Shown piece after piece: positions 1-11,970 of a stretch of 12,316 bases of DNA. The notes below the pieces were generated by a model that saw only the letters and a list, made by a program, of their open reading frames with translations, searched no databases and had not been told where the DNA came from. The position numbers were made by a program, and so were the translations under genes. This DNA comes from Candidatus Abyssobacteria bacterium SURF_5. GTDB lineage: Bacteria; Abyssobacteria; SURF-5. The DNA lies in contig QZKU01000001.1 in the NCBI GenBank assembly GCA_003598085.1, positions 1-12,316 of the forward strand, given 5' to 3'. Position 1 is the first letter of the stretch. The number at the start of each line of letters is the position of its first letter.

Positions 1-1
1 A

Positions 2-85
2 AGCATTTCCAAACGCGCCTTCGGATTCCATGACAACCGATATTTTACTCTTAAAGTCATACAGGCATTCTCAGGCAACAACTAA
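2..85 (+). CDS. Probable ISL3-family transposase, C-terminal end only (5' truncated by window edge)
   Basis: The frame is open from the first bases to TAA at 83-85 and gives 27 residues. The core KRAFGFHDNRYFTLKV resembles the C-terminal pattern of ISL3-family DDE transposases, roughly [KR]-R-x-[AG]-[YF]-G-[YF]-x-D-x-x-[FY]-F-x-L-K-[IV]. That resemblance is from memory of the family, not a search. The stretch is AT-richer than the genes that follow. A likely IS terminal repeat starts directly after the stop, and the gene remnant beyond it begins in mid-protein; both support an insertion sequence. With only 27 residues visible, another small basic C-terminus remains possible. Confidence 0.6.
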   Translation, partial: SISKRAFGFHDNRYFTLKVIQAFSGNN

Positions 86-100
86 ATCGGAGAAGAACCC
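86..100 (-). repeat. Candidate IS terminal inverted repeat (right end)
   Basis: Read inward from the IS end, the bases are GGGTTCTTCTCCGAT, which matches the GG-x-TCTT style of ISL3-family ends. The partner repeat lies outside the window, so this is an inference from one end only. Confidence 0.45.
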
Positions 101-238
101 AAAATGTTAACAAAAAGCGGGTGCGTCGTTCAGAATTCGGGCGGCTCGCTTGAGGTGATGTCGTCTGAACAGGCGGCTGAACGCATTGCCGCCAAGGACC
201 CGGAAACACGGGCGCTCTACGAACGGCGTGAACACTAA
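101..238 (+). pseudogene. C-terminal remnant of a second QueG-like Fe-S reductase, truncated by the IS
   Basis: The frame 101-238 reads KML... to TAA. From the Met, its 44 residues align without gaps to residues 305-348 of the intact Fe-S protein at 253-1299, with 22 identities. Conserved blocks are SGC-x-VQN and DxETRALYE at the very end. Upstream in this frame there is a stop at 83-85 and no Fe-S motif, so the catalytic part is gone. The intact gene follows after 14 bp, so the pair was a tandem duplication in one operon. The 50% identity shows an old duplication and not a recent copy. An ATG at 104 with GGAG at 89-92 (11-nt spacer) could allow translation of a 44-residue peptide, but the GGAG belongs to the IS end, so the signal looks accidental. 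It is best treated as a broken gene. Confidence 0.8.
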
Positions 239-252
239 TTGGAGATTGCGTC

Positions 253-1299
253 ATGTATAGTCTTGAACAGCTTATCATCGACAGAGTGATGGGAGAGGGC
301 GCATGCGCTTACGGTTTCGCAACGACCGAAACGCTTGCGGGCGGGCCGCCGTCGGTCAATCTCGAGTACGTTCTGCCGGGCGCACGGTCAGCCATCAGCT
401 TTGCTATTCCGCTCGACCAGAGCTGCATCCCGCCGTACCTGATGAAGAAGGATCACCTGTCGCAACAGAAGGACAACACCCGGGCAAACAAGATTGCCAG
501 CGGAATTGCGCTCGACCTTGCAAGGTATCTGGAGCAAAAAGGCTTTCCTTCTTATCCGGTGGCATCCAATCAGGTTTACCGGCAGGACACGCCTCGCGGG
601 ATTTTTGATTTGAAACCGGACGTCTCGCTCAGATACCTCGCAGTGCGATCCGGCGTGTCCCACATGAGTCTCTCGGGCAACGCCATAACGAAAAACGAGG
701 GCGCGGCCATCATTCTCGGCGGCGTCGTCACGACCGCTGAACTGCATCCGACCGCCCCGCTTCCGCAGGAGGAAAACTACTGCGACGGCTGCCGCCTCTG
801 CATGGCGGCCTGTCTCTCGGGCCTGATGGACCCGGAGGAAGAGGAAATAATAACGCTTGGAGGCGTCTCCTTCACTTATGCCAAGCGTCGCGAGTATAAT
901 CGATGTGGATACGTCTGTGGCGGGTTCACCGGTCTTCACCCCTCCGGCACATGGTCCACATGGTCGCCCGGCCGGTTCCCGATTCCGGAACGAGATGAAG
1001 ACTTCGGGCCGGCAGTCATGCAGCATCTCGACATTCACACCCGCAGGCCGGCGATGGATGGTGCGCGAATTCATCCGTTGATAGAAGGCAAATTCAGCAT
1101 GACGTGCGGAATGTGCCAATTAGTGTGTGCGCCCGACAAGGAGGAGCGCAAGAAGCGATACAAGATGCTGGCGGAGAGCGGCTGTGCCGTCCAAAATCCC
1201 GATGGCTTGATCGAGGCGGTGCCGCCGGCAGAAGCGTGCAGGCGCTTGGCCGCAATGGATTCCGAAACCAGAGCGTTGTATGAGGAAGTTCAGGGTTAG
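253..1299 (+). CDS. QueG-like (COG1600-type) double [4Fe-4S] cluster protein, probable reductase
   Basis: The 348-residue product has a first cluster motif CxxCxxCxxxC (Cys177, 180, 183, 187) and a second CxxCxxxC (Cys285, 288, 292), spaced as in epoxyqueuosine reductase QueG and reductive-dehalogenase Fe-S domains. It lacks the proline after the last Cys of each motif, and it has an extra conserved-looking block around Cys218 and Cys222 (CGYVCGGFTGLH, then WSTWSPGR). I therefore would not call it QueG; it is a QueG-like subfamily of unknown substrate. No Tat signal or membrane segment is visible, so it should be cytoplasmic. ATG 253 has GGAG at 241-244 (8-nt spacer). It is followed after 12 bp by the NMO-like gene and preceded by a broken paralogue. 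In context it may pass electrons to a flavoenzyme or reduce an acyl-CoA intermediate; this is inference. Confidence 0.85.
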   Translation: MYSLEQLIIDRVMGEGACAYGFATTETLAGGPPSVNLEYVLPGARSAISFAIPLDQSCIPPYLMKKDHLSQQKDNTRANKIASGIALDLARYLEQKGFPSYPVASNQVYRQDTPRGIFDLKPDVSLRYLAVRSGVSHMSLSGNAITKNEGAAIILGGVVTTAELHPTAPLPQEENYCDGCRLCMAACLSGLMDPEEEEIITLGGVSFTYAKRREYNRCGYVCGGFTGLHPSGTWSTWSPGRFPIPERDEDFGPAVMQHLDIHTRRPAMDGARIHPLIEGKFSMTCGMCQLVCAPDKEERKKRYKMLAESGCAVQNPDGLIEAVPPAEACRRLAAMDSETRALYEEVQG

Positions 1300-1311: not shown

Positions 1312-2205
1312 ATGCCGCGCTTACTGGAGATTCTGGGCAGCAAGTATCCCATCATTCAAGGCCCAATCGGTGAGTTGAACGACCCGAAAATGGTGGCTGC
1401 CGTCTGCAAGGCGGGCGGCTTCGGAATGCTCGCACTGGGGTTTGTCACGGACCTGGAAAACGTCAGGGAGATGGTCGCCGGGGTAAAGAGCCTGACCGAT
1501 AAACCATTTGGCGCAAATCTGATGCTCGCCATGAATCCGAACAACGAGGCTATCCTCGAGGTTCTGGCCGAAACGGGCGTAAAAACCGTAACAACCTCCG
1601 CCGGCTCGCCGAAAAATATTTATCCAAAGATCAAGGAACTGGGGTTGAACTACCTTCACGTCACGCTTGCAGCTGCGCTCGCAAAAAAAGCGGCCGACGC
1701 GGGCGCGGCCGCGGTAATTGTTTCCGGGAGCGAGTCCGGCGGTTTGCGCACCACCGGCCCCGAATCCACTAATCTGATCCTCATCCCGTTGGTGTGCGAC
1801 ATGGTGAGCATTCCCGTGGTCGCCGCCGGAGGAATCGCCGACCGTCGAGGATACCGAGCCGCAATGGCACTCGGCGCTCAGGGTGTACAAATCGGCACCG
1901 CATTCCTGGCCTCCGAGGAAAGCCCGGCCCCGCGCGCGTGGAAGGAAGCAATCGTTGCCTGCGGAGACACGGCGACGACGCTGTTGCCGATGGGGCGTAT
2001 GGCCATGCGCACTATCATCAATCCGAAGCTGGGCGAATTGATTGCCTCCGGCGCAGACCTCAGCCAGGAGTATAATATGCTGAATGCCGGCGAAGCGTGG
2101 CGGACGGGCAACTTCGACCTCTTTCCGGCTGGAGCGGGACAGGTAAGCGCATTGATAAATAAGATTAAGCCCGTCAAGGACATTATTGAAGAGATGGTTT
2201 CCTGA
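1312..2205 (+). CDS. Nitronate monooxygenase / FabK-like FMN-dependent TIM-barrel protein, catalytic His replaced
   Basis: The 297-residue product has the NPD/FabK fold signatures: N-terminal YPIIQGPIGELNDPKM, AGGFGML (35-41), the FMN-phosphate loops VVAAGGIAD (169-177) and GAQGVQIGTAFLAS (188-201), and a C-terminal GQVSALI. Nitronate monooxygenases and FabK have a catalytic His in E-x-GGH. Here the motif is SGSESGGLRTTG, with Leu145 at that place. Classical nitronate oxidation is therefore doubtful, and an acyl-CoA or enoyl reduction/oxidation role fits the neighbours better. The start is set by GGAGG at 1301-1305. It sits 12 bp after the Fe-S gene and 39 bp before the crotonase, so it is almost surely in one operon with them. 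Family assignment is firm; the reaction is unknown. Confidence 0.85.
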   Translation: MPRLLEILGSKYPIIQGPIGELNDPKMVAAVCKAGGFGMLALGFVTDLENVREMVAGVKSLTDKPFGANLMLAMNPNNEAILEVLAETGVKTVTTSAGSPKNIYPKIKELGLNYLHVTLAAALAKKAADAGAAAVIVSGSESGGLRTTGPESTNLILIPLVCDMVSIPVVAAGGIADRRGYRAAMALGAQGVQIGTAFLASEESPAPRAWKEAIVACGDTATTLLPMGRMAMRTIINPKLGELIASGADLSQEYNMLNAGEAWRTGNFDLFPAGAGQVSALINKIKPVKDIIEEMVS

Positions 2206-2244: not shown

Positions 2245-2940
2245 ATGGCGAAATTCGAATACGAGATGGACGAGCATGTGGCCGTGCTGACAATGAACAG
2301 CGGGGAGAACCGGTTTAATTTCCCCTTCTTCAAAGGTTTCTCGGAAATACTAGACACCATTGAGCATGATACCGCTGCCGATGTTCTTGTCGTCAAATCC
2401 GCGCATGAAAAGATTTGGTCGAACGGCATCGATTTGGACTGGCTCGGGCCCGCAATCGCGGAGGAAGGCCCGCAAATTCGCGACAAGTTCCTGGTCGAGA
2501 TGTATGGCTTCCTGAGACGCCTGCTGACGTATCCCATGATTACGATCGCGGCCATCAACGGTCACGCCTTTGCCGGCGGCGCCTTTCTGTCCTTCACTCA
2601 TGATTTTCGTTTCATGCGGTCGGACAGAGGCTGGATCTGCCTTCCTGAAGTAGACATCAACATTCCGCTCGGACCCGTTTTCACCGCCATCTCGAAACGG
2701 GCACTCCCCATGTACAAGTTCGAGGAAATGCAATACACCGCCAAGCGATTGACTGCTCAGGAATGCGAACAACATCACATTGTAATGAAGGCGTGCCCTC
2801 TCAACGATCTGATGAACGAGGTCCTTGCATTCGCGAACCCGCTAAAGAAGAGCAGGGAGATGATCGGGCAAATGAAACTCGATACGCACAAGGAGCTCTT
2901 GGCGGTTATCGATGACACTATCTCGTCACTGTCCAAATAG
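2245..2940 (+). CDS. Crotonase-family protein, Delta3-Delta2-enoyl-CoA isomerase-like
   Basis: The 231-residue product is short for the family (usually about 250-290). The oxyanion-hole segments are WSNGIDL (58-64) and INGHAFAGGAF (104-114). Of the two hydratase glutamates, the first (GGG-x-E in enoyl-CoA hydratase) is Phe114, and the second is kept as Glu135 in CLPEVDI. One-Glu crotonases of this type, including the eukaryotic ECI/PMI group with similar HDxRxMRxDRGxxxxxE text, move double bonds and do not hydrate them. A Delta3-to-Delta2 isomerase is therefore the best guess. ATG 2245 has GGAGGA at 2233-2238 (6-nt spacer). It is the last gene of the first putative transcript; a 224-bp gap with a promoter follows. 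Confidence 0.8.
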   Translation: MAKFEYEMDEHVAVLTMNSGENRFNFPFFKGFSEILDTIEHDTAADVLVVKSAHEKIWSNGIDLDWLGPAIAEEGPQIRDKFLVEMYGFLRRLLTYPMITIAAINGHAFAGGAFLSFTHDFRFMRSDRGWICLPEVDINIPLGPVFTAISKRALPMYKFEEMQYTAKRLTAQECEQHHIVMKACPLNDLMNEVLAFANPLKKSREMIGQMKLDTHKELLAVIDDTISSLSK

Positions 2941-2996
2941 CCCGTACCATCGCAGGAATCGCTTTTTGAAAGGTGCCAAGATGCCTCTTGTAAGCG

Positions 2997-3025
2997 TTGA
3001 GCATTTTGTCCGTACGGGATATAAT
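2997..3025 (+). promoter_or_regulatory. Sigma70-like promoter for the thiolase gene and downstream genes
   Basis: -35 TTGAGC (2997-3002), 17-bp spacer, -10 TATAAT (3020-3025), with a start expected near 3032 and a leader of about 130 nt before ATG 3165. The spacer contains the palindrome CGTACG (3011-3016). A 7-bp arm GTACGGG (3012-3018) is repeated inverted at 2941-2947, and CGTAC recurs at 3077-3081, so an operator is possible but unproven. This is the only large gap in the cluster (2941-3164) and holds no gene that I support. Confidence 0.6.
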
Positions 3026-3164
3026 CAAGGTCGTGCCACCGCCTGCGGATTAGTTGCGGGCTGATCCTTAATAGTTCGTACCGGAGCATTCGGCGCGCAG
3101 CGCTGTCTTAATCTCCGCAATCTCTCAGTAGTGCCGCATCGGACAGGAAAAGGAGCGAAAAGAA

Positions 3165-4415
3165 ATGGGTGACGATGTTTACATCATCGGAGTAGGAATG
3201 ATCAAGTTCGGAAAACATTACGAGAAGAGCGTCAAACAGATGACAGGAGAGTCGCTCGAACTCGTATTGAAGGATTGCGGTTTGACCCGCAAGGATATCG
3301 AAGCCGCCTGGTTCTCGAATACCGGCTGGGGCATGTACTCCTTTCAACATTCGATCCGCGGCCAGGTCGCCCTGAGCGCAAATGGGTTCGATAGTGTTCC
3401 CATCACCAACGTGGAAAATGCATGCGCCAGCGGAAGCACCGCCCTGCACGGCGCCTGGACGGCGATAAAAGCGGGCCTCTATGATTGTGTTCTGGCCATC
3501 GGGACCGAAAAAATGTACGACGAGGACCGTGTCAAGGTAATGCGTGGTTTCATGGCGGGGACCGACGTCGAAGAGATGATGCAGCGGATGGCAAAATTTG
3601 CGGAAGAGGAGCAGGCGCGAAAAGAGAAAGAGGCCAGGGAGAAAGGCGCTGAGGTTGTTGCCGAGAAGCCGGGCGGACACTCCGTCTTCATGGATTTTTA
3701 CGCAATGGGCGCACGCATGCATATGCAGAGATACGGTTCAACGCAGCGGCAGTTGGCCGTTATAGCGGCCAAAGCGCACAATAATTCGACCCTCAATCCG
3801 CTGGCCCAGTACACGTTTCCGCAGACGGTCGAGCAAGTGCTGGCGGACCGCGAAGTGGCCTATCCACTGACCCGCGCTATGTGTGCGCCGATCGGCGACG
3901 GCTCGGCTGCCGCCATTATCTGCAGCGAACGATTCTTCAAGAAACATCCTTCGGATCGGGCGGTCAGAATACGGGCGTCCGTGCTCAAATCCGGGAGACG
4001 CACCGGCGAGAACGATATCAGCCAGCGCGCCGCCGCCGTGGCTTACAAGATAACGGGGGTCGGTCCGGAGGATATTGACGTGATTGAGGTTCATGATGCG
4101 ACCGCATTCGGAGAAATCCATCAGATGGAAGCCCTCGGTTTCTGCCCGGAAGGTGAAGGCGGCATTTTCGCCGAGAGCGGCGCGACCGCGCTCGACGGCA
4201 AGATTCCGGTCAATCCGAGTGGCGGCCTGATCTCGCGCGGGCATCCCATTGGAGCATCCGGTCTGGCACAGACGCACGAACTGGTCACGCAGCTGCGCGG
4301 CGAGGCCGGAAAGCGGCAGATCAAAAAACACCGCATCGCAATGGCTGAAAACGGAGGCGGCACGCTTGGCAACGGAGAGGCCGCAATGACTATCCACATT
4401 TTTGAGAAGGTATAG
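3165..4415 (+). CDS. Thiolase-superfamily protein (SCP2-thiolase-like), lacking the acid/base cysteine
   Basis: The 416-residue product has the nucleophile Cys87 in NVENACASGSTAL, an SCP2-type EVHDAT motif (His310) and a GHPIGASG histidine (His360). Thiolases need a second Cys, either in the HDCF loop (SCP2 type) or in a C-terminal CxG. Here these read HDAT (Ala312) and ENGGG (395-399), so both are missing. The protein may thus be a thiolase variant, a Claisen/aldol-type lyase or a subunit needing a partner. Many bacterial relatives pair with a DUF35 Zn/OB-fold protein; none is encoded nearby. An E/K/R-rich insert at about 136-168, probably a long charged helix, sits in the lid region and is unusual. 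AAGGAG ending at 3155 precedes ATG 3165 by 9 nt. It is the first gene of the second putative transcript. Confidence 0.85.
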   Translation: MGDDVYIIGVGMIKFGKHYEKSVKQMTGESLELVLKDCGLTRKDIEAAWFSNTGWGMYSFQHSIRGQVALSANGFDSVPITNVENACASGSTALHGAWTAIKAGLYDCVLAIGTEKMYDEDRVKVMRGFMAGTDVEEMMQRMAKFAEEEQARKEKEAREKGAEVVAEKPGGHSVFMDFYAMGARMHMQRYGSTQRQLAVIAAKAHNNSTLNPLAQYTFPQTVEQVLADREVAYPLTRAMCAPIGDGSAAAIICSERFFKKHPSDRAVRIRASVLKSGRRTGENDISQRAAAVAYKITGVGPEDIDVIEVHDATAFGEIHQMEALGFCPEGEGGIFAESGATALDGKIPVNPSGGLISRGHPIGASGLAQTHELVTQLRGEAGKRQIKKHRIAMAENGGGTLGNGEAAMTIHIFEKV

Positions 4416-4483
4416 TTGTCGAAAAAGCCCCGACGATTTCTGATTTGACGTGTAGTGGGGAGTTTATTTTGCAATTCAAGCGC

Positions 4484-4490
4484 AGGAGGT
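4484..4490 (+). promoter_or_regulatory. Ribosome binding site supporting a TTG start
   Basis: AGGAGGT, a near-perfect Shine-Dalgarno site, lies 7 nt before TTG 4498 and fixes this non-ATG start. Confidence 0.85.
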
Positions 4491-4497
4491 ATCCGAT

Positions 4498-6432
4498 TTG
4501 GGCACGTTGAAGCATCTGTTATCACCGATCCGGATCAGGAAACTGGAACTCTTGAATCGGGCCGTCATGCCGCCGATGGGAACCAACCTGGGCGACGACG
4601 ACGGCATGGTCGGCGACGCGCTTCTGGCGTATATCGGACGGCAGGCCCGCAGCGGCGCGGCCCTGATCATTTCGGAAATCACCTGTGTCCACCCCAGCGG
4701 CATGGTCAGTCCGAACCATCTCGGAGCGTATGATGACCGCTTCATTACCGGACTGAAAAAATATGCCGCCGCAATCCATGAGGCCTGCGGCAAGGCTGCA
4801 ATGCAGCTCCACCATGCCGGCCGTGAGAGCTTTTTCCAACTGATGCAGGGAGAGGCGATTGGACCGTCGGCAATCCCGAGCGTGGTCTATCGGCAGGCGC
4901 CGCGCGAGATGACGCTGGCCGAGATTCAGGAGATAATCCACGCTTTTGGACGGGCCGCGTTGCGCGCTCGTGAGGCCGGTTTCGATGCCGTCGAGGTGCA
5001 CGGTGCGCACGGTTATCTGCTGACCCAGTTTCTGTCCGCACTCTCGAATCAGCGCCAGGACGAATATGGCGGCTCTCTGGTTAACCGGGCGAAATTCATT
5101 ATTGAGGTCTTGCGAGCCGTTCGACAAAATGTGGGCGATGATTTTCCCATTTCGCTTCGAATTTCCGCAGAGGAATGTATAAAAGATGGGTATACCGTCG
5201 AGGATATTCAGCAAATTTTACCCGAACTGGTGTCCGCCGGCGCGGATATTATTCATGCATCGCTCGGGACACACGGAACACCCGCCGGCATCACGAGCGC
5301 TCCGGCCGAGTACGAGCCCGGCTTCAACGCCTGGCGCGCCAAAAAAATCAAAGATGCAGTGAAAGTCCCCGTCATTGCGGTCGGCCGATTCACCGATCCC
5401 GCGCTTGCCGATGAAGTCATCGCGCGCGGGGACGCCGACTTGATCGCGTTCGGACGCCAGCAGTTGGCCGACCCTGACTTTTTGAAGAAGGCAAGGGAAG
5501 GACGCTCGAAGGAGATTCGCATATGCATCGCCTGCAACCAGGGCTGTATCGAGCGCCTCATGCTCGAGCCCGGCTCCTCTGTCCGCTGCGCGATCAATCC
5601 GGAAACGGGCCAGGAGCTCGCGTATCCAAAAAAGCCTGCGGAAACCAGCAGGAAAGTCTGGGTTGCCGGATCGGGGCCCGCGGGCCTGACCGCCGCCTAC
5701 GAGGCCGCGCGACTCGGTCACGAGGTGACGCTTTTCGAAAAAGAGGCAAGGCCCGGCGGACAGATATATTTTGCATCGAAGGCGCCGCACAAAGAGTGTT
5801 ACGAAAACTGGATTCACTGGCTGTGCGGACAGGTTGAGACGGCGGGAGTCACTACAAAATTGAATGCCCTCCTTACGCCGGATATGGTGAAAAGTGGACG
5901 GCCGGATATCGTCATTCTTGCTGCAGGCGCCGAGATAATCATTCCAACTATCCCGGGTGTCGAGCTCCCGCACGTGTGCAATGCGCTTCAAATCCTTGCG
6001 GGCGAGGTCGCGCCGAAAGAAACCGTTGTCGTTGTCGGCGGTGGGATGATCGGGATGGAGACGGCCGACTTTCTGATCGCGAGGGGGAGCAGGGTGACGG
6101 TCGTCGAACTGCTGCCGCGCTCGCCGGTCAAGAAGTTCGCCTCACACGGTTACATGCTTCACAAACGCCTGCGTGACGGCGGAGGCCGCTTGCTGCTGGG
6201 AACCAAGGTGGAACGAATCCGCGAGGATGCAGTGATCATCACGAGCGAACGGGGAGAGGAAGTGCTGCCGGCCAGGCAGGTGGTCATTGCAGTCGGCACG
6301 CGTTCTCGCTCCGGATTGAAAGCGCTTCTTGAGGAACACAAAATCCCGCACGTGGTTGTGGGAGACGCGGTACAGCCGCGGCGCATCATCGAAGCGACCG
6401 AAGAGGGCGCGCGGGCAGCCTGGAATATTTGA
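4498..6432 (+). CDS. FadH/BaiCD-like FMN-FAD-[4Fe-4S] NAD(P)H:enoyl(-CoA) oxidoreductase
   Basis: The 644-residue product has the full layout of 2,4-dienoyl-CoA reductase, BaiCD/BaiH and trimethylamine dehydrogenase. The Old-Yellow-Enzyme barrel (about 1-340) contains EVHGAHGYLLTQFLS and YGGS-x-x-NR. The [4Fe-4S] ligands are CxxCxxxC (Cys343, 346, 350) plus Cys364. The FAD motif is GSGPAGL (391-397), and the second nucleotide-binding motif is VVVGGGMIGMETADF (511-525). Tyr173 matches the proton-donor Tyr of E. coli FadH, and His259 may match its active-site His. The enzyme should be cytosolic, take hydride from NAD(P)H through FAD and the cluster to FMN, and reduce a conjugated C=C bond. It lies 82 bp after the thiolase-like gene and 22 bp before the first MaoC gene. 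Substrate choice (fatty acyl-, steroid- or cyclic acyl-CoA) cannot be read from the sequence. Confidence 0.9.
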   Translation: MGTLKHLLSPIRIRKLELLNRAVMPPMGTNLGDDDGMVGDALLAYIGRQARSGAALIISEITCVHPSGMVSPNHLGAYDDRFITGLKKYAAAIHEACGKAAMQLHHAGRESFFQLMQGEAIGPSAIPSVVYRQAPREMTLAEIQEIIHAFGRAALRAREAGFDAVEVHGAHGYLLTQFLSALSNQRQDEYGGSLVNRAKFIIEVLRAVRQNVGDDFPISLRISAEECIKDGYTVEDIQQILPELVSAGADIIHASLGTHGTPAGITSAPAEYEPGFNAWRAKKIKDAVKVPVIAVGRFTDPALADEVIARGDADLIAFGRQQLADPDFLKKAREGRSKEIRICIACNQGCIERLMLEPGSSVRCAINPETGQELAYPKKPAETSRKVWVAGSGPAGLTAAYEAARLGHEVTLFEKEARPGGQIYFASKAPHKECYENWIHWLCGQVETAGVTTKLNALLTPDMVKSGRPDIVILAAGAEIIIPTIPGVELPHVCNALQILAGEVAPKETVVVVGGGMIGMETADFLIARGSRVTVVELLPRSPVKKFASHGYMLHKRLRDGGGRLLLGTKVERIREDAVIITSERGEEVLPARQVVIAVGTRSRSGLKALLEEHKIPHVVVGDAVQPRRIIEATEEGARAAWNI

Positions 6433-6454
6433 TTCACAGGCCGAGGAGGAAAAC

Positions 6455-6892
6455 ATGATCGAGAAATCCGCTATTGGGAAAACAACTCGTACGCATTCGC
6501 TGGAGGTCGAGAAGGGCCACATCCGGCGGTTTGCGGAAGCGATCGGGGACGAGAACCCGTTGTACCGGGATGAAGAATACGCCCGCCGCAGCCGTTACGG
6601 CGGCATCATAGCGCCGCCGACTTTCCCCACTGTTTTCGGATTCGAGGGCGAGAAGGTAATGGAGGGCCTTCAGTTCGACTGCGCGCGCCTGCTGCACGGT
6701 GAACAGGAATACGAGTATTACCAGCCGATAAGGCCCGGTGACACGATGAGCTACAGCACGAAGATCGTGAACGTTGACGAGAAACAGGGCAAGAGCGGCC
6801 CGATGGATATCGTGACCACCGAGATGACCGGCTGCAATCAGAAGAACGAGCGAGTGTTCGTGGCTCGTTCCACCGTGGTAATAAGAAGATAA
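6455..6892 (+). CDS. MaoC-like hot-dog hydratase subunit, HadA/HadC type (FAS1-like dehydratase domain)
   Basis: The 145-residue single hot-dog protein has RRFAEAIGDENPLYRDEEYA, GIIAPPTF and LHGEQEYEYYQPIRPGDTM, typical of the N-terminal MaoC (FAS1_DH) domain and of mycobacterial HadA/HadC. The catalytic His of R-hydratases is Tyr37 here (GDENPLY), so it is probably the substrate-binding partner and not the active subunit. ATG 6455 has GGAGGA at 6445-6450 (4-nt spacer). An upstream in-frame ATG at 6329 lies deep in the reductase gene and is not credible. The next gene supplies the missing dyad and has the same length, so a heterodimer is likely. Confidence 0.85.
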   Translation: MIEKSAIGKTTRTHSLEVEKGHIRRFAEAIGDENPLYRDEEYARRSRYGGIIAPPTFPTVFGFEGEKVMEGLQFDCARLLHGEQEYEYYQPIRPGDTMSYSTKIVNVDEKQGKSGPMDIVTTEMTGCNQKNERVFVARSTVVIRR

Positions 6893-6910
6893 CGCCTCAT
6901 GGCCCTGAAA

Positions 6911-6915
6911 AGGAG
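6911..6915 (+). promoter_or_regulatory. Ribosome binding site deciding the ATG 6923 start
   Basis: AGGAG sits 7 nt before ATG 6923. The earlier in-frame ATG at 6899 has no Shine-Dalgarno site and lies only 6 nt after the previous stop. Confidence 0.75.
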
Positions 6916-6922
6916 TGAAGCG

Positions 6923-7360
6923 ATGGCAGGCCAGACCGTTTATTTCGATGACGTGAATGTGGGCGATGAGATTCCAAGCCTCGCGAAAGACCCCATCACC
7001 GAAGTACAGCTTGTGAAATATGCCGGCGCCTCCGGCGACTTCAACCCGATCCACACGGTTCACCATTATGCCGAGAAAGCCGGCCTCGGCGGCGTTATCG
7101 CCCACGGCATGCTCAGCATGGGCTTCGTCGGACAGCATGTTACTCGCTGGATGGGCGAGGCAGGCGAATTGAAGCGCCTGAAGGTTCGATTCGCCGCCAT
7201 GACGCGCCCGGGCGATGTCATTACCCTGAAAGGGAAAATCCTCGGCAAAAGGGAAACCGGCGGCGACAGCCTTGTGGACTGCGAGCTGTGGGCTGAGAAA
7301 CAGGATGGTACAAGGACGGTTGCCGCCAATGCGACCGTTGCATTGCCGCGGAGAAAGTAA
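6923..7360 (+). CDS. MaoC-like (R)-specific enoyl-CoA hydratase/dehydratase subunit, HadB type
   Basis: The 145-residue single hot-dog protein carries the complete hydratase-2 motif YAGASGDFNPIH, with catalytic Asp39 and His44, then GGVIAHGMLSMGF. It should hydrate trans-2-enoyl-CoA to (R)-3-hydroxyacyl-CoA, or dehydrate in reverse. The preceding gene lacks the His and matches the HadA partner, so the two probably form one HadAB-like enzyme. The start at 6923 was chosen on its ribosome binding site. It is the last gene of the cluster; a T-run and a new promoter follow. R-specific chemistry next to an isomerase-type crotonase means the intermediate would be the (R)-3-hydroxy form. No dehydrogenase for it is encoded here. 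Confidence 0.9.
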   Translation: MAGQTVYFDDVNVGDEIPSLAKDPITEVQLVKYAGASGDFNPIHTVHHYAEKAGLGGVIAHGMLSMGFVGQHVTRWMGEAGELKRLKVRFAAMTRPGDVITLKGKILGKRETGGDSLVDCELWAEKQDGTRTVAANATVALPRRK

Positions 7361-7514: not shown

Positions 7515-7910
7515 ATGAGACGGATTCTCCTGATCCTTATTCTCCTCCATGTTCTTGTTGCGGCTAAGCCTCTCGGTCTCGAGCTGAAGAGAACCGTGCG
7601 CGACATGCGGGTTCTGAAGGGGAAAGACAACAACGAAAGACTGCGGCTCATGCTGGGCGGTGTGTTGGACTCGGTTGAAGACCACGAATTTATCTCACGC
7701 TGTGCGCGCGAGATCCCGCCGGATGCGGATGTTCTTGTTGTCACCAACGTAATGACAAACGTGTACACGCTCTCATACTACCTTTACCCGCGGAAGGTAT
7801 ACTCAAGCGAAGCAGGACCCGACAATCAATATTGGATCGTCCATTATTTCACTCCGAAAGCGCTCGGCCTTAATAAGTTGGAGGGCCCGGTCCGGCTTGA
7901 CAATACTTAA
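7515..7910 (+). CDS. Small membrane-anchored protein of unknown function, partner of a GT-C-like protein
   Basis: The 131-residue product starts MRR followed by a hydrophobic helix (about 4-16), then KPLGLELKR, so it has one N-terminal membrane segment or an uncleaved signal. A soluble domain of about 110 residues follows, probably outside the membrane. The text IPPDADVLVV...YYLYPRKVY resembles short extracytoplasmic segments seen in or beside polytopic glycosyltransferases of the GT-C class. That is an impression only, and I do not recognise the family. The start is uncertain: TTG 7509 or 7512 (AAGGA at 7498-7502) or TTG 7485 (GGAG at 7476-7479) are possible; ATG 7515 is the conservative choice. 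Its end overlaps the next gene by 14 bp, which implies translational coupling and a joint role. Confidence 0.65.
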   Translation: MRRILLILILLHVLVAAKPLGLELKRTVRDMRVLKGKDNNERLRLMLGGVLDSVEDHEFISRCAREIPPDADVLVVTNVMTNVYTLSYYLYPRKVYSSEAGPDNQYWIVHYFTPKALGLNKLEGPVRLDNT

Positions 7911-9327
7911 TGTTCTTTGGTCTCTTCTCACTATCTGCATCATCGGCTATGCGTTCGCGCTGCTCATCTTTCGGCGGGCTCGAATCTCGGGCGTCACCCT
8001 GTTTCTTCTTTCGATTGGATTGGGCTTTGGTATCCTCGCCGAGTTCTGCTATTTATTCCTCATGTTTTCCAGGAAGATTCCCTTCCAGTCGCTGTACTCC
8101 CTGATCGCGCCAAGTCTTATTCTCGTGCTGTTCATGAAGCGCCGCGCCTGGGGCGCCTCGTGGGAAAGTCTTGCGTCGCAATGTTGGGAACTGGCGAGGA
8201 CTTTTGGAAAAGAGCCCCTGCCGAAAAGATTGCTGGTGTTATCCGCTGTAGTAGTCGTCATCACAATTGTTGCAATCACTTCCTTCAACCTGGTGGCTCG
8301 GCCGGCGTATCAATTCGATTCGCGCGCGATCTGGCTCCAGAAAGCGAAGATTCTGTATCATGAACGCACCATATTCTCCGACGCTGTCGTAGATATAGCC
8401 AGAAATCATCCGCACCCGCGCTACCCGTTGCTCTTGCCAATGACGCAAAGCTGGGTCTTCTATCATATGCAGGAGACGGATGACCGGGCCGGCCGACTTC
8501 TGTTCCTGCTCTTTTTTGTGGGCCTCCTGGCCGCAACGTACGAGCTTTCGAAGACAGAATCCACAAAACGAGTGGCGGCCTTCAGCCTCTTCCTTCTGCT
8601 GCTCGTACCGTTTATGTATAGCGGAATTCTGCCGGGAACCGCGTCAGGATACGCAGATTTGATTCTCTCCTTTTATATCACTTCGAGCGCGTTGATGATG
8701 GCGCTCTGGTTGAAGGAAAGGAAACTCGTGTTCGTATTGGCGGGCGCATTTCTGGCAGCCGCTTGTGCAATGGTCAAAAATGAGGGACTGGTGTTTGCCG
8801 GTAACCTCCTGATTCTTACTGCAATTTTCTCTCTGGAGAAGGGTTGGTTGGCTCGGCGAAAAGAAGGTGTGCTTCTTTTCTTTGTGATAACGGGGTTGCT
8901 TCTTGCGCCGGCGTTATCTGTCCGATCGAGGTTGCCGGCATTTCTTGACGAGAATTATCTCGCGCATGCTACGCCGGCTGCGATTATTGCTGGTGTGAGC
9001 AGAGTGCCGAAGACGTTCAGCGGTTTTATCCGTGAGTTCAGCGATTTTAGTGACTGGGGGGTTTTCTGGCTGCTGATCGGCGTTGCGGCCGTACAATGCG
9101 TCATGACCCGAAGGCGAATCCCGTTATTTATCCTCGCACTGATCCTGGTTCAAGTGTTTGCGTACTTCGCGATATTCATCATTACGCCGAATGACCCGGC
9201 GGGCCAGATGCGCGACGCGCTCTCGCGGCTGTTCTACCACGTCTCATCCCTCGGCGCCGCACTCGTGGCTTTCCAACTCGCTCCTGAAAAACGAATGCCT
9301 CCCTCATCCTCCCAATTGCGCTCATAG
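7897..9327 (+). CDS. Polytopic membrane protein, putative GT-C-type glycosyltransferase
   Basis: The 476-residue product has roughly ten or more hydrophobic helices (for example about 5-25, 33-57, 110-132, 200-216, 228-245, 275-293, 322-340, 408-430). A polar loop after the fourth carries YQFDSRAIW (Asp141) and HPHPRYPLLLP (171-181). A loop Asp followed by a WxxKAK-like segment and a later KNEG (294-297) recalls GT-C enzymes that use polyprenyl-phosphate sugars (PMT/ArnT class). The match is loose and no donor can be named. The only in-frame start near the hydrophobic N-terminus is TTG 7897, with GGAGGG at 7880-7885 (11-nt spacer); it overlaps the previous gene by 14 bp. Its stop overlaps the stop of the convergent lipoprotein gene by 6 bp. 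It is likely an envelope glycan or lipid modification protein. Confidence 0.65.
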   Translation: MTILNVLWSLLTICIIGYAFALLIFRRARISGVTLFLLSIGLGFGILAEFCYLFLMFSRKIPFQSLYSLIAPSLILVLFMKRRAWGASWESLASQCWELARTFGKEPLPKRLLVLSAVVVVITIVAITSFNLVARPAYQFDSRAIWLQKAKILYHERTIFSDAVVDIARNHPHPRYPLLLPMTQSWVFYHMQETDDRAGRLLFLLFFVGLLAATYELSKTESTKRVAAFSLFLLLLVPFMYSGILPGTASGYADLILSFYITSSALMMALWLKERKLVFVLAGAFLAAACAMVKNEGLVFAGNLLILTAIFSLEKGWLARRKEGVLLFFVITGLLLAPALSVRSRLPAFLDENYLAHATPAAIIAGVSRVPKTFSGFIREFSDFSDWGVFWLLIGVAAVQCVMTRRRIPLFILALILVQVFAYFAIFIITPNDPAGQMRDALSRLFYHVSSLGAALVAFQLAPEKRMPPSSSQLRS

Positions 9328-11970
9328 CTCGCCGTGCTGCAGGTGTGCTTCGAACACGTCGCTTTCCGAGAGGATCAATTCCTCGCGGAAAACGATCGAA
9401 TTACCGGCGTCGCGAGTCAGCACGGCCTCCAATTGACTCCCATTTTTCCATGTTTTCGCATCAACTTTCCCCTTCGGGGCTTCATCCGGCAGACTCAGGC
9501 GCTTCAGCCGCAGCGTTCCGCGCCGAACGGTTATCTTGAGTTGCGCGCCTGAGCCGGTCCTCGCAAAATCAAGCGTTGCTGTCACCCCCGGCACTATGAG
9601 AGGCGTTCGCAGGTCGCGAATTTGATTTGGAGGATCAATTGCAAGAGATGCATGCGGGGCATGATAACGAAAACCCTGCACGCCGAGCAGCACCGCCCAC
9701 GCCGACATCGGCCGGTAGTAGAACGGCCAGGCCATCGGAAGCCCCGTATCCCCGTCGCATGCTTCCCGAATATTCCACAGGTTTCCGAGCCGCACGGCGT
9801 AATTCTCATGGACCTCGTTAACGGCGGCAAGGGGCTCTTCATAGAAGCCTCGATACAGCCCCAGCGAGGCGACGGCAAACGTTGCGCCGGGCCAAACGGA
9901 AGAGCTTTGTGCCTGAAAATAGCCGGCGTGGCCTGGATAATCGATGCCTTGTCCCGGTGAGAAGCCGTTTACGATGCCATATGGAGTCGCGGGATCATTG
10001 AATTGAAAGACCGCGGCGAGCGTTTTCTGTATTCGCTCCGGATCGAGCAGATCGCCCAGTCCGAGCATATCGGCGTACCACTGGCCATTGAGCGCATCAG
10101 CAAAGCAGACGTCGGCCCTCTCCTCCGAAAGCGCATAAAACCGCCCGTTCCACAGCGTCCGCTCGACGGTGTCGCGGGCGTTGTCGAAAAGTTCGCGATA
10201 TTCTTTTGCCCGAGAGCGGTCATTGAAAACGAGCGCCGTTTCCTCGGCCGCGCGCAAAGCAGCAAGCCAGATGCCCGCGATATAGATCGGCGAGTCGCCC
10301 ATGTCGTAATCATCATATGACTGAGCGACTCGAACAAGGTCGGGAAGATTGTCGCCGTCACTGTCGGCTTGCGCAACCAGAGTCATCGCCTCCTTGATCG
10401 CCGGCCACATCTCCCTCAGAAACGCCTCGTCCCCTGTCCAGATATAATCCCGGTAAACCATCAAAACGAACGAGAGGTTATTCTGCAAGAATGGCCTGCC
10501 GAACGGCAATTCGAGCGAAAAACCATAGAACTGTTCCGGTATTTGCCCGACCTTCGCGCCTCCGAAAGGCCCGCGATATTTAGCCAGCCGCCGGAGAATC
10601 TGCTGGTCGAGTTCCGGGAAGAGGAGGGCCAGCGGGATCGAGCCGTAATACCTGACATGAATGCAGTCCGGATTTGCGCAGCCGTTTGTGGATTCCAAGA
10701 TATTGAAGCCGCCGTCTTCGGTCCAAAACGATGTCTTGAAAAAGGGATAGAGAGAGTTACAGAGAAGATGTTTCACATCGGGGTCGACGTTGCTTTCATA
10801 TATGCCGCTTGTCCAAAGCGCCGTCTCTCTCTCCAGCCGATCCCGGTTCTGGAAGAAATACCTGTTGATTTCCTCGAGACTGCCGAACTTGTTGTATCTG
10901 CGGCCAATGTATTTATTCGCCTCGTTCTCTTGCGTTGTCCCCAGTTCGAGAAATTTCTGCTCCATCTGGTAGCCGCGGGTCGGGCGCTGCCGCTGATCGG
11001 GGTAATACCATGAGAGGAGAAACGTGATTTCCCGGCTCGCGCGCGGCTCGATGTCGACCTCTGAACATAGAGCGATCCTGCCATTGTGCCCTATCCGCCC
11101 GCGAAGCGTTCCCGTCTTCTCGAATTCGGCTGGCAGGAACGGCCCTTCCCAGCCCGCGGAAAAGGCGGCGCTGGGTGACGATGTCGCTATCGCGATTGAA
11201 TCGGGGCCGGATTCGCAGCGAATAATGGAAAAATGATCGGTTCTCTCGAATTGCGCGCTTGCCTGCTCAAAGAAAGAGCCAACTGCAAAGAGAAGAGAAA
11301 CATGAACCGGCTCGTCTGAAATGTTCATCAGCTTGAAAGTAAAGCAGGCGACCGGGAGACAGGAATTTTCGGCATCATGAGGTATAAACGGGGAAAAGAC
11401 GGAACTGGTGACGGCGACAGGCTGTTCGCCGGCGCCGTAATCGAGAGAAACGAAAGGGAACCTGCCCTCATAGGTAATCTCTTTCGTCCTCTTTCGGCCT
11501 GCCCACCGACTGTCCTGCAGGATGCGCGTCTTGTGCCAGCCCGGTGTTTCCGTCCGTATCGCCGCGAAGGAAAATTCCGGCTCCTTCGCGAGGTCCCAAT
11601 TCCCCGCAATTCTCCAGTCATGCAGCGCGCCGTCCGGCCACAGTTCGATTGTTCCGGCCCCCAATCCGCCCAACGGTACTCCGGACCTGCCTCTGAGGCC
11701 CTTCAAGTACTCGTCCCGGCAGCGAATCAGAAGAGGGCCCGCCTCCGAGGGATCGGCCGCCTTCGCCCGCTCGAGCAACTCCTTCAGCTTGAGCGTGTCG
11801 TGCCCGAGGACCTCTTCGATCTGCATGTTCTGTTCGAGCAGGTGCAGTTCGTTTGCTATCGCTGTGTCGGACCGGAAAGTCGGCGGGGGAGCGGAGTTAT
11901 CGCCTCCGCAAGCGGCGCAATTGGCGATAACGAAAAGAAACGCTGCCAAAAAGATCGGTTTTGAGATCAT
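9322..11970 (-). CDS. GH116/DUF608 (GBA2-like) family putative lipoprotein
   Basis: The 882-residue product starts with a hydrophobic signal (about 5-20) and CAAC-GGDNS, so Cys21 is a probable lipidation site; Cys18 is an alternative. SGVPLGGLGAGTIELWPDG (96-114) and HDWRIAGNWD are hallmarks of the N-terminal beta-sandwich of DUF608/GBA2-like proteins. SDGDNLPD (537-544), SYDDYDM (551-557) and IYIAGIWLAALRAAEE (562-577) match the catalytic (alpha/alpha)6 domain. Asp553 fits the acid/base Asp (D593 in the Thermoanaerobacterium enzyme, D677 in human GBA2). The nucleophile Glu, from memory in an N-E-L-Y context, appears as N-S-L-Y (Ser406), so activity is uncertain. The family hydrolyses beta-glucosides or beta-xylosides and glucosylceramide. 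A beta-rich C-terminal part follows (about 770-882). The gene is alone on the minus strand with its own promoter. The Shine-Dalgarno site is weak (GGA before ATAG-ATG). Confidence 0.8.
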   Translation of the reverse strand: MISKPIFLAAFLFVIANCAACGGDNSAPPPTFRSDTAIANELHLLEQNMQIEEVLGHDTLKLKELLERAKAADPSEAGPLLIRCRDEYLKGLRGRSGVPLGGLGAGTIELWPDGALHDWRIAGNWDLAKEPEFSFAAIRTETPGWHKTRILQDSRWAGRKRTKEITYEGRFPFVSLDYGAGEQPVAVTSSVFSPFIPHDAENSCLPVACFTFKLMNISDEPVHVSLLFAVGSFFEQASAQFERTDHFSIIRCESGPDSIAIATSSPSAAFSAGWEGPFLPAEFEKTGTLRGRIGHNGRIALCSEVDIEPRASREITFLLSWYYPDQRQRPTRGYQMEQKFLELGTTQENEANKYIGRRYNKFGSLEEINRYFFQNRDRLERETALWTSGIYESNVDPDVKHLLCNSLYPFFKTSFWTEDGGFNILESTNGCANPDCIHVRYYGSIPLALLFPELDQQILRRLAKYRGPFGGAKVGQIPEQFYGFSLELPFGRPFLQNNLSFVLMVYRDYIWTGDEAFLREMWPAIKEAMTLVAQADSDGDNLPDLVRVAQSYDDYDMGDSPIYIAGIWLAALRAAEETALVFNDRSRAKEYRELFDNARDTVERTLWNGRFYALSEERADVCFADALNGQWYADMLGLGDLLDPERIQKTLAAVFQFNDPATPYGIVNGFSPGQGIDYPGHAGYFQAQSSSVWPGATFAVASLGLYRGFYEEPLAAVNEVHENYAVRLGNLWNIREACDGDTGLPMAWPFYYRPMSAWAVLLGVQGFRYHAPHASLAIDPPNQIRDLRTPLIVPGVTATLDFARTGSGAQLKITVRRGTLRLKRLSLPDEAPKGKVDAKTWKNGSQLEAVLTRDAGNSIVFREELILSESDVFEAHLQHGEL

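Follow-up and report, generated by a model that had tools for sequence, protein, structure and literature searches.

We find that a short open reading frame at the edge of a contig of Candidatus Abyssobacteria bacterium SURF_5 is, with a probability that we put at roughly 0.94, the 3' end of a reductase gene (copy A) that was complete until an ISL3-type insertion sequence (IS) split it, with the two halves now lying on contigs C125 and C1. The stretch of DNA analyzed here, the window, comprises bases 1-12316 of contig C1; the genome is a metagenome bin of 5,103,455 bp in 145 contigs. We propose that an ISL3-type element transposed into a complete copy A at codons 306-307 of 350, an event that would have duplicated the 8 bp CAAAATGT. 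As a result, the gene on C125 would end 10 codons into the element and a 44-codon tail would be left beyond the element's right end (104-238). The multicopy element would then have broken the assembly of the MAG at this site, so that the window shows the tail alone. The window contains the following features.

1..99, plus strand: right end of a multicopy ISL3-type insertion sequence, 98-100% identical at 8 contig ends whose flanks differ.
2..85, plus strand: 3' end of an ISL3 transposase gene, the last 27 codons and stop (ending in KRAFGFHDNRYFTLKVIQAFSGNN), assigned from the PF01610 match of a related element.
89..99, plus strand: terminal inverted repeat GGAGAAGAACC, the reverse complement of which, GGTTCTTCTCC, is found at left ends.
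100..107, plus strand: target-site duplication of 8 bp, CAAAATGT; these 8 bp are found again before the left IS end on C125.
104..238, plus strand: copy A tail, the last 44 codons and stop, with 22/44 identity to copy B, an open joined frame and a dS close to that of the body.
239..252, no strand: intergenic spacer of 14 nt with a GGAG ribosome-binding-like sequence for copy B, read directly.
253..1299, plus strand: reductase copy B, 348 aa, intact, with nine conserved Cys and a QueG/RdhA-like fold (alignment, AlphaFold2, VIA-align).
1312..2205, plus strand: nitronate-monooxygenase (NMO)/FabK-like flavoprotein, likely in the same operon (PF03060, 176 bits), near a family reductase in 6 other loci.
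2245..7360, plus strand: likely remainder of the operon, encoding a crotonase, a thiolase-like protein, a BaiCD/FadH-like Fe-S flavoenzyme and two MaoC-type hydratases.

The 44-codon frame at 104-238 can be aligned gap-free with residues 305-348 of the copy B protein, 22 of 44 residues being identical, in agreement with the first-pass annotation. The BLOSUM62 local score of this alignment is 111, as compared to a maximum of 48 and a mean of 25 in 5,000 shuffles, and a whole-genome search using the copy B protein as query recovers the tail separately (E 1.5e-7). Two further early observations held up on inspection: the tail and the neighboring reductase are 14 bp apart (239-252), and nothing upstream in frame matches the rest of the protein, because positions 1-99 are the end of an insertion sequence. 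The homology of the tail starts within the target-site duplication (100-107) and not at any start codon. Read across the junction, K (101-103), M (104-106) and the L that follows form the “YKML” of homologs, and YKM(L) is present in several of these. The 8-bp duplication and the 350-codon frame obtained when the halves are joined (see below) together identify ATG 104 as codon 307 of copy A, an internal Met of the conserved YKM, and not as a start codon. That the 44-codon frame is instead an independent, conserved small gene is extremely improbable: while the IS end puts a GGAG ribosome-binding-like sequence shortly 5' of ATG 104, the frame starts inside the target duplication and forms part of the rejoined 350-codon frame, and in about 80 family loci the C-terminal piece is separate only in Methanosarcina sp. 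Ant1, as a decayed fragment, and in a contig-edge cut. As a side observation, a GGAGAAG in the IS end (window 89-106) lies a few bases 5' of ATG 104, and accidental translation of the tail is possible.

The DNA to the left of the tail belongs to a mobile element. Window positions 1-98 occur at eight contig ends in the genome with 98-100% identity, and these ends continue into differing DNA from base 100 onward; it is because the ISL3-type element is multicopy that contig C1 is cut here. The 27-aa transposase tail encoded in the window is too short for Pfam or NCBIfam scoring; it aligns at the C-terminus of plasmid ISL3 transposases, in matches that are individually not significant, and a longer relative was scored in its place. 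This relative is an element end in the sister genome G001 (L147:2-124), 85% identical at the DNA level. The 41 aa that it encodes match PF01610 (DDE_Tnp_ISL3) at profile positions 209-239 of 240 with 27.9 bits (cutoff 23), suggesting that the window starts inside an ISL3-type insertion sequence near its right end. A weak promoter-like match is present at 30-57 in the IS end and is not evidence of expression.

To pair the broken ends we relied on the inverted repeats and the 8 bp that flank them. The elements on C125, C117, C40, C87 and C3 have GGTTCTTCTCC as their left end, and GGAGAAGAACC is found at right ends. Three of the five left ends have an exact 8-bp partner among the eight right ends, with about 6e-4 chance pairs expected from the 5 x 8 pairs. 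Aside from C125 and C1, the exact pairs are C87/C68 (TACTTTCC) and C3/C99 (GAAAAAGA), and these two lend support to the pairing method. The left IS end on C125 (L009:1-97) has 81% identity to the four other left ends, and the right end on C1 is of the common type; the copy A site may therefore hold a mosaic or variant element, or two adjacent elements. The variant left end leaves the reading of the gene unchanged and makes the exact nature of the element less certain. In a search of the whole bin, we found no full ISL3 transposase or IS body, most likely because the contig carrying the IS repeat was left unbinned.

The remainder of copy A is located on C125. This contig begins with the left IS end, followed on the complement strand by a QueG-like gene of the same family that carries copy A codons 1-307 (L064, complement, upstream of about base 90). 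The gene is open up to the residues DKEERKRRYKM and then runs into the element, such that it now reads through 307 native codons and another 10 from the left end of the element before reaching a stop. CAAAATGT adjoins the element on both C125 and C1, and an in silico join of the two contigs in which one CAAAATGT is kept yields a single uninterrupted 350-codon frame; there is no stop or frameshift in the 44-codon tail. It was initially proposed that the tail is the 3' end of a QueG-like reductase 14 bp upstream of its neighbor and interrupted by an insertion sequence, and this part of the proposal stands. The additional idea that the tail is the leftover of a deleted gene does not, given that 307 codons are intact on C125.

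Some observations weigh against the join. The exact 8-bp match falls on the partly conserved YKM codons and is for that reason less improbable than a random match, and the tail is 60% identical to the ortholog in the sister MAG SURF_17 as compared to 86% for the body; among pairs with a comparable body identity, no other tail value is as low. The link between C125 and C1 is also drawn from contig ends in a metagenome bin. A different explanation would be that the tail is a decayed remnant whose 5' part was deleted, and that the gene on C125 is another paralog, into which a related element happened to insert at the same codon. The two IS ends may stem from separate elements, given that the C125 left end is a variant, and the best match of the tail by score is the locus L079, with the SURF_17 ortholog second. 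However, such a coincidence would have to reproduce the same codon, a compatible IS orientation, an exact 8-bp duplication and an open joined frame. In addition, body and tail show about the same dS relative to SURF_17, and the genome has no other copy without a tail or with this tail. We consider this explanation very unlikely and retain the split of a single gene.

A metagenome bin raises another question, namely whether the split is polymorphic or an assembly effect, with an intact copy A in part of the population and the bin representing the inserted allele. In favor of this scenario, the genome is a MAG in which contigs break at insertion sequences; against it, no contig with the intact version is found in the bin, and a bin would normally retain the majority allele. 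We regard it as unlikely.

Comparison of copy A with its SURF_17 ortholog also bears on the age of the insertion. The dS is 1.15 for the body and 1.28 for the tail, and the pN/pS of the tail is 0.42, versus 0.36 for the tail of an intact control pair (C7 versus G002:C58). The protein identity of the tail is variable in other ortholog pairs as well. We detect no relaxed selection or decay of the tail beyond that of the control-pair C-terminus, in a comparison of 41 codons that has little power. A recent insertion would be the best fit to these sequence comparisons, and 41 codons permit no strong statement.

We used a whole-genome search and phylogeny to place the reductases of SURF_5 relative to each other. 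Besides the split copy A and copy B (253-1299), the genome encodes a third full-length paralog on C7. Identity between A and B is about 60%, and the two are not sisters in a maximum-likelihood tree of 82 proteins, so they do not represent a recent tandem duplication. In the same tree, A groups with a gene on SURF_17 C47 (support 100/100), the C7 paralog groups with one on SURF_17 C58 (99/95), and B is without supported close kin (best identity 64%). Indeed, copy B has no close ortholog (best 64%) in the genomes reached, the sister MAG SURF_17 included. A full-length first copy was to be looked for in a relative, and we found it in SURF_17 (QZKI01000117.1, 34,599 bp; L058/L068), where the ortholog of A has a body 86% identical and an intact tail. 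Unlike copy A, this ortholog stands alone, with no adjoining second copy and no insertion sequence inside.

Tandem arrangement of these genes is rare more generally. In about 80 loci drawn from many phyla, the one other case of complete adjacent copies is a Nitrospinota MAG, which has three consecutive copies, and in the multi-copy genomes among 24 searched whole, the copies are at separate places. The single copy in SURF_17 and the rarity of adjacency thus do not support a heteromer or a lineage in which the genes are always paired. For the same reasons, we could not sustain the earlier suggestions that a lineage has kept a tandem pair and that such a pair implies two functions or a heteromer: the SURF_17 copy is alone, adjacency occurs in one other lineage, and A and B are not sisters. 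Two functions for A and B are possible, as for any diverged paralogs, and a required heteromer is not implied. The Nitrospinota MAG, CSMAG_3060 (L059/L115, G033:C181), has its three family members separated by spacers of roughly 35-40 bp, and in one of these copies (L059:2074-3135) Trp replaces the conserved cluster cysteine 180. In Methanosarcina sp. Ant1, the decayed C-terminal fragment (L118:2578-2781) derives from a second copy and lies about 1.1 kb downstream of an intact copy; it is a remnant of the sort that the first-pass annotation envisaged for SURF_5.

The structure of the family was examined through copy B. Its AlphaFold2 model (mean pLDDT 95, pTM 0.92) has its best structural matches by VIA-align among reductive dehalogenases and epoxyqueuosine reductase (Z 14-17), followed by the B12 chaperones CblC and CblD. 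In this model the N-terminal domain has a cobalamin-binding fold (QueG/RdhA Z 14-17 and CblC Z 7-10, with ranges from residue 1-2), and copy B is predicted to bind cobalamin. The nine Cys follow the pattern of a di-cluster ferredoxin domain with two [4Fe-4S] clusters, CxxCxxCxxxC ... CxxCxxxC; in a 54-row alignment C177, C183, C187, C218, C222, C285, C288 and C292 are invariant and C180 is near-invariant. In the model, 56 residues follow the final cluster Cys and contain a helix, a hairpin and two short helices. In one genome scan we identified 114 stretches matching the family, in many phyla; these relatives were found with an alignment as query, and a single-protein query returned none. We found no experimentally named family member, and literature searches returned no paper on the reductase family of copies A and B.

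These data suggest what the insertion did to copy A. All nine conserved Cys (177, 180, 183, 187, 218, 222, 285, 288 and 292 in copy B numbering) precede the insertion, and it is conceivable on this basis that the truncated 317-aa product is still active and the insertion nearly neutral. However, the lost part includes the invariant residues G310, G318 and Y343 and the near-invariant Q314 and A328, and it corresponds in the copy B model to a confidently predicted hairpin (311-323) and two helices (325-340), mostly with pLDDT >90. An active truncation is therefore quite unlikely in our estimation. Copy A is likely inactivated, since the tail it has lost is predicted with confidence to belong to the fold and contains invariant residues.

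The genes on either side of the insertion point to an operon. A TetR regulator is located directly upstream of copy A on C125, and the genes for copies A and B and for the acyl-CoA-type enzymes downstream may once have formed one operon behind this TetR-type regulator. The insertion may be polar on copy B, since it lies between the regulator and the downstream genes. These downstream genes likely function in an anaerobic pathway of the acyl-CoA type. The BaiCD/FadH-like Fe-S flavoenzyme (window 4498-6432) does not reach the 825-bit cutoff of the BaiCD model, with a score of 567 bits. In other genomes, an NMO-like gene is near and co-directional with a family reductase in six loci, and the same is true of a 4Fe-4S protein of roughly 360 aa in about 16 loci. 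We also considered whether the operon is shared with SURF_17 and rejected this: orthologs of the crotonase (86%) and the BaiCD-like enzyme (78%) are on other contigs there, with no reductase in the stretches read. Further along the window are an ORF for a 476-aa membrane-protein-like product with no Pfam match (7897-9327) and, convergent with it, a GH116-type glycosidase with a lipoprotein-like N-terminus (9322-11970, minus strand; PF04685, PF12215). As a tentative idea that we hold at clearly less than even odds, the clade of A and B may represent class III B12 reductases of anaerobic bacteria and Methanosarcina that work with flavin reductases on a substrate that is an acyl-CoA or a related compound, in which case the IS would expose redundancy among the diverged SURF_5 members.

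Taken together, the split gene is an ordinary insertion-sequence disruption in an uncharacterized reductase family. An apparent orphan fragment is hereby turned into an explained transposition, with a target duplication and both gene halves. There is a caution here for genome annotation, in that an ORF at the contig edge of a MAG can turn out to be what lies beyond an insertion sequence. Lastly, the affected family shares its fold with the few known B12/Fe-S reductases.

The systems described here can be compared to known ones. 8-bp duplications are typical of ISL3 elements. The element in copy A resembles this family in its termini beginning GGTTCTTC, its 8-bp target duplication and its inverted repeats, and the transposase C-terminus of the related element matches PF01610; it differs in that its own body was not recovered from the bin and in that the C125 left end is an 81% variant of the other copies in the genome. 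With regard to the reductases, QueG (PDB 5d6s, 5d08, 5t8y) has the same overall fold as copy B (Z 14-15 over 225-238 residues) and the two-[4Fe-4S] Cys pattern. However, QueG carries a C-terminal HEAT-repeat domain (residues 258-372; PMC4646009) whereas copy B ends in a short hairpin and two helices, and the neighbors of copy B are acyl-CoA and flavoprotein genes. We therefore rejected copy B as a QueG, as it scores 25.6 bits against the 200-bit TIGR00276 equivalog cutoff and the HEAT domain is absent. The RdhA enzymes (PceA 4uqu, NpRdhA 4ras, 8q4h) match at Z 15-17 over 208-234 residues with 14-19% identity, the best match being Z 16.6 over 231 residues with the B12-binding and di-cluster core fold present, and they share the order of a cobalamin-binding-like domain followed by a di-cluster domain. 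Unlike RdhA, copy B is shorter and its N-terminus, MYSLEQLIIDRVMGEGACAYG, is without the RR (twin-arginine) motif; it has no RdhA family match in Pfam or NCBIfam, and the Abyssubacteria paper (PMC6121073) does not mention dehalogenation. The best reading of the modeled fold is that copies A and B represent a further, uncharacterized branch of the cobalamin/[4Fe-4S] reductase fold group. The QueG structure paper proposed that there are further uncharacterized families dependent on B12 and [4Fe-4S] (PMC4646009), which makes the clade of A and B a reasonable candidate for biochemistry.
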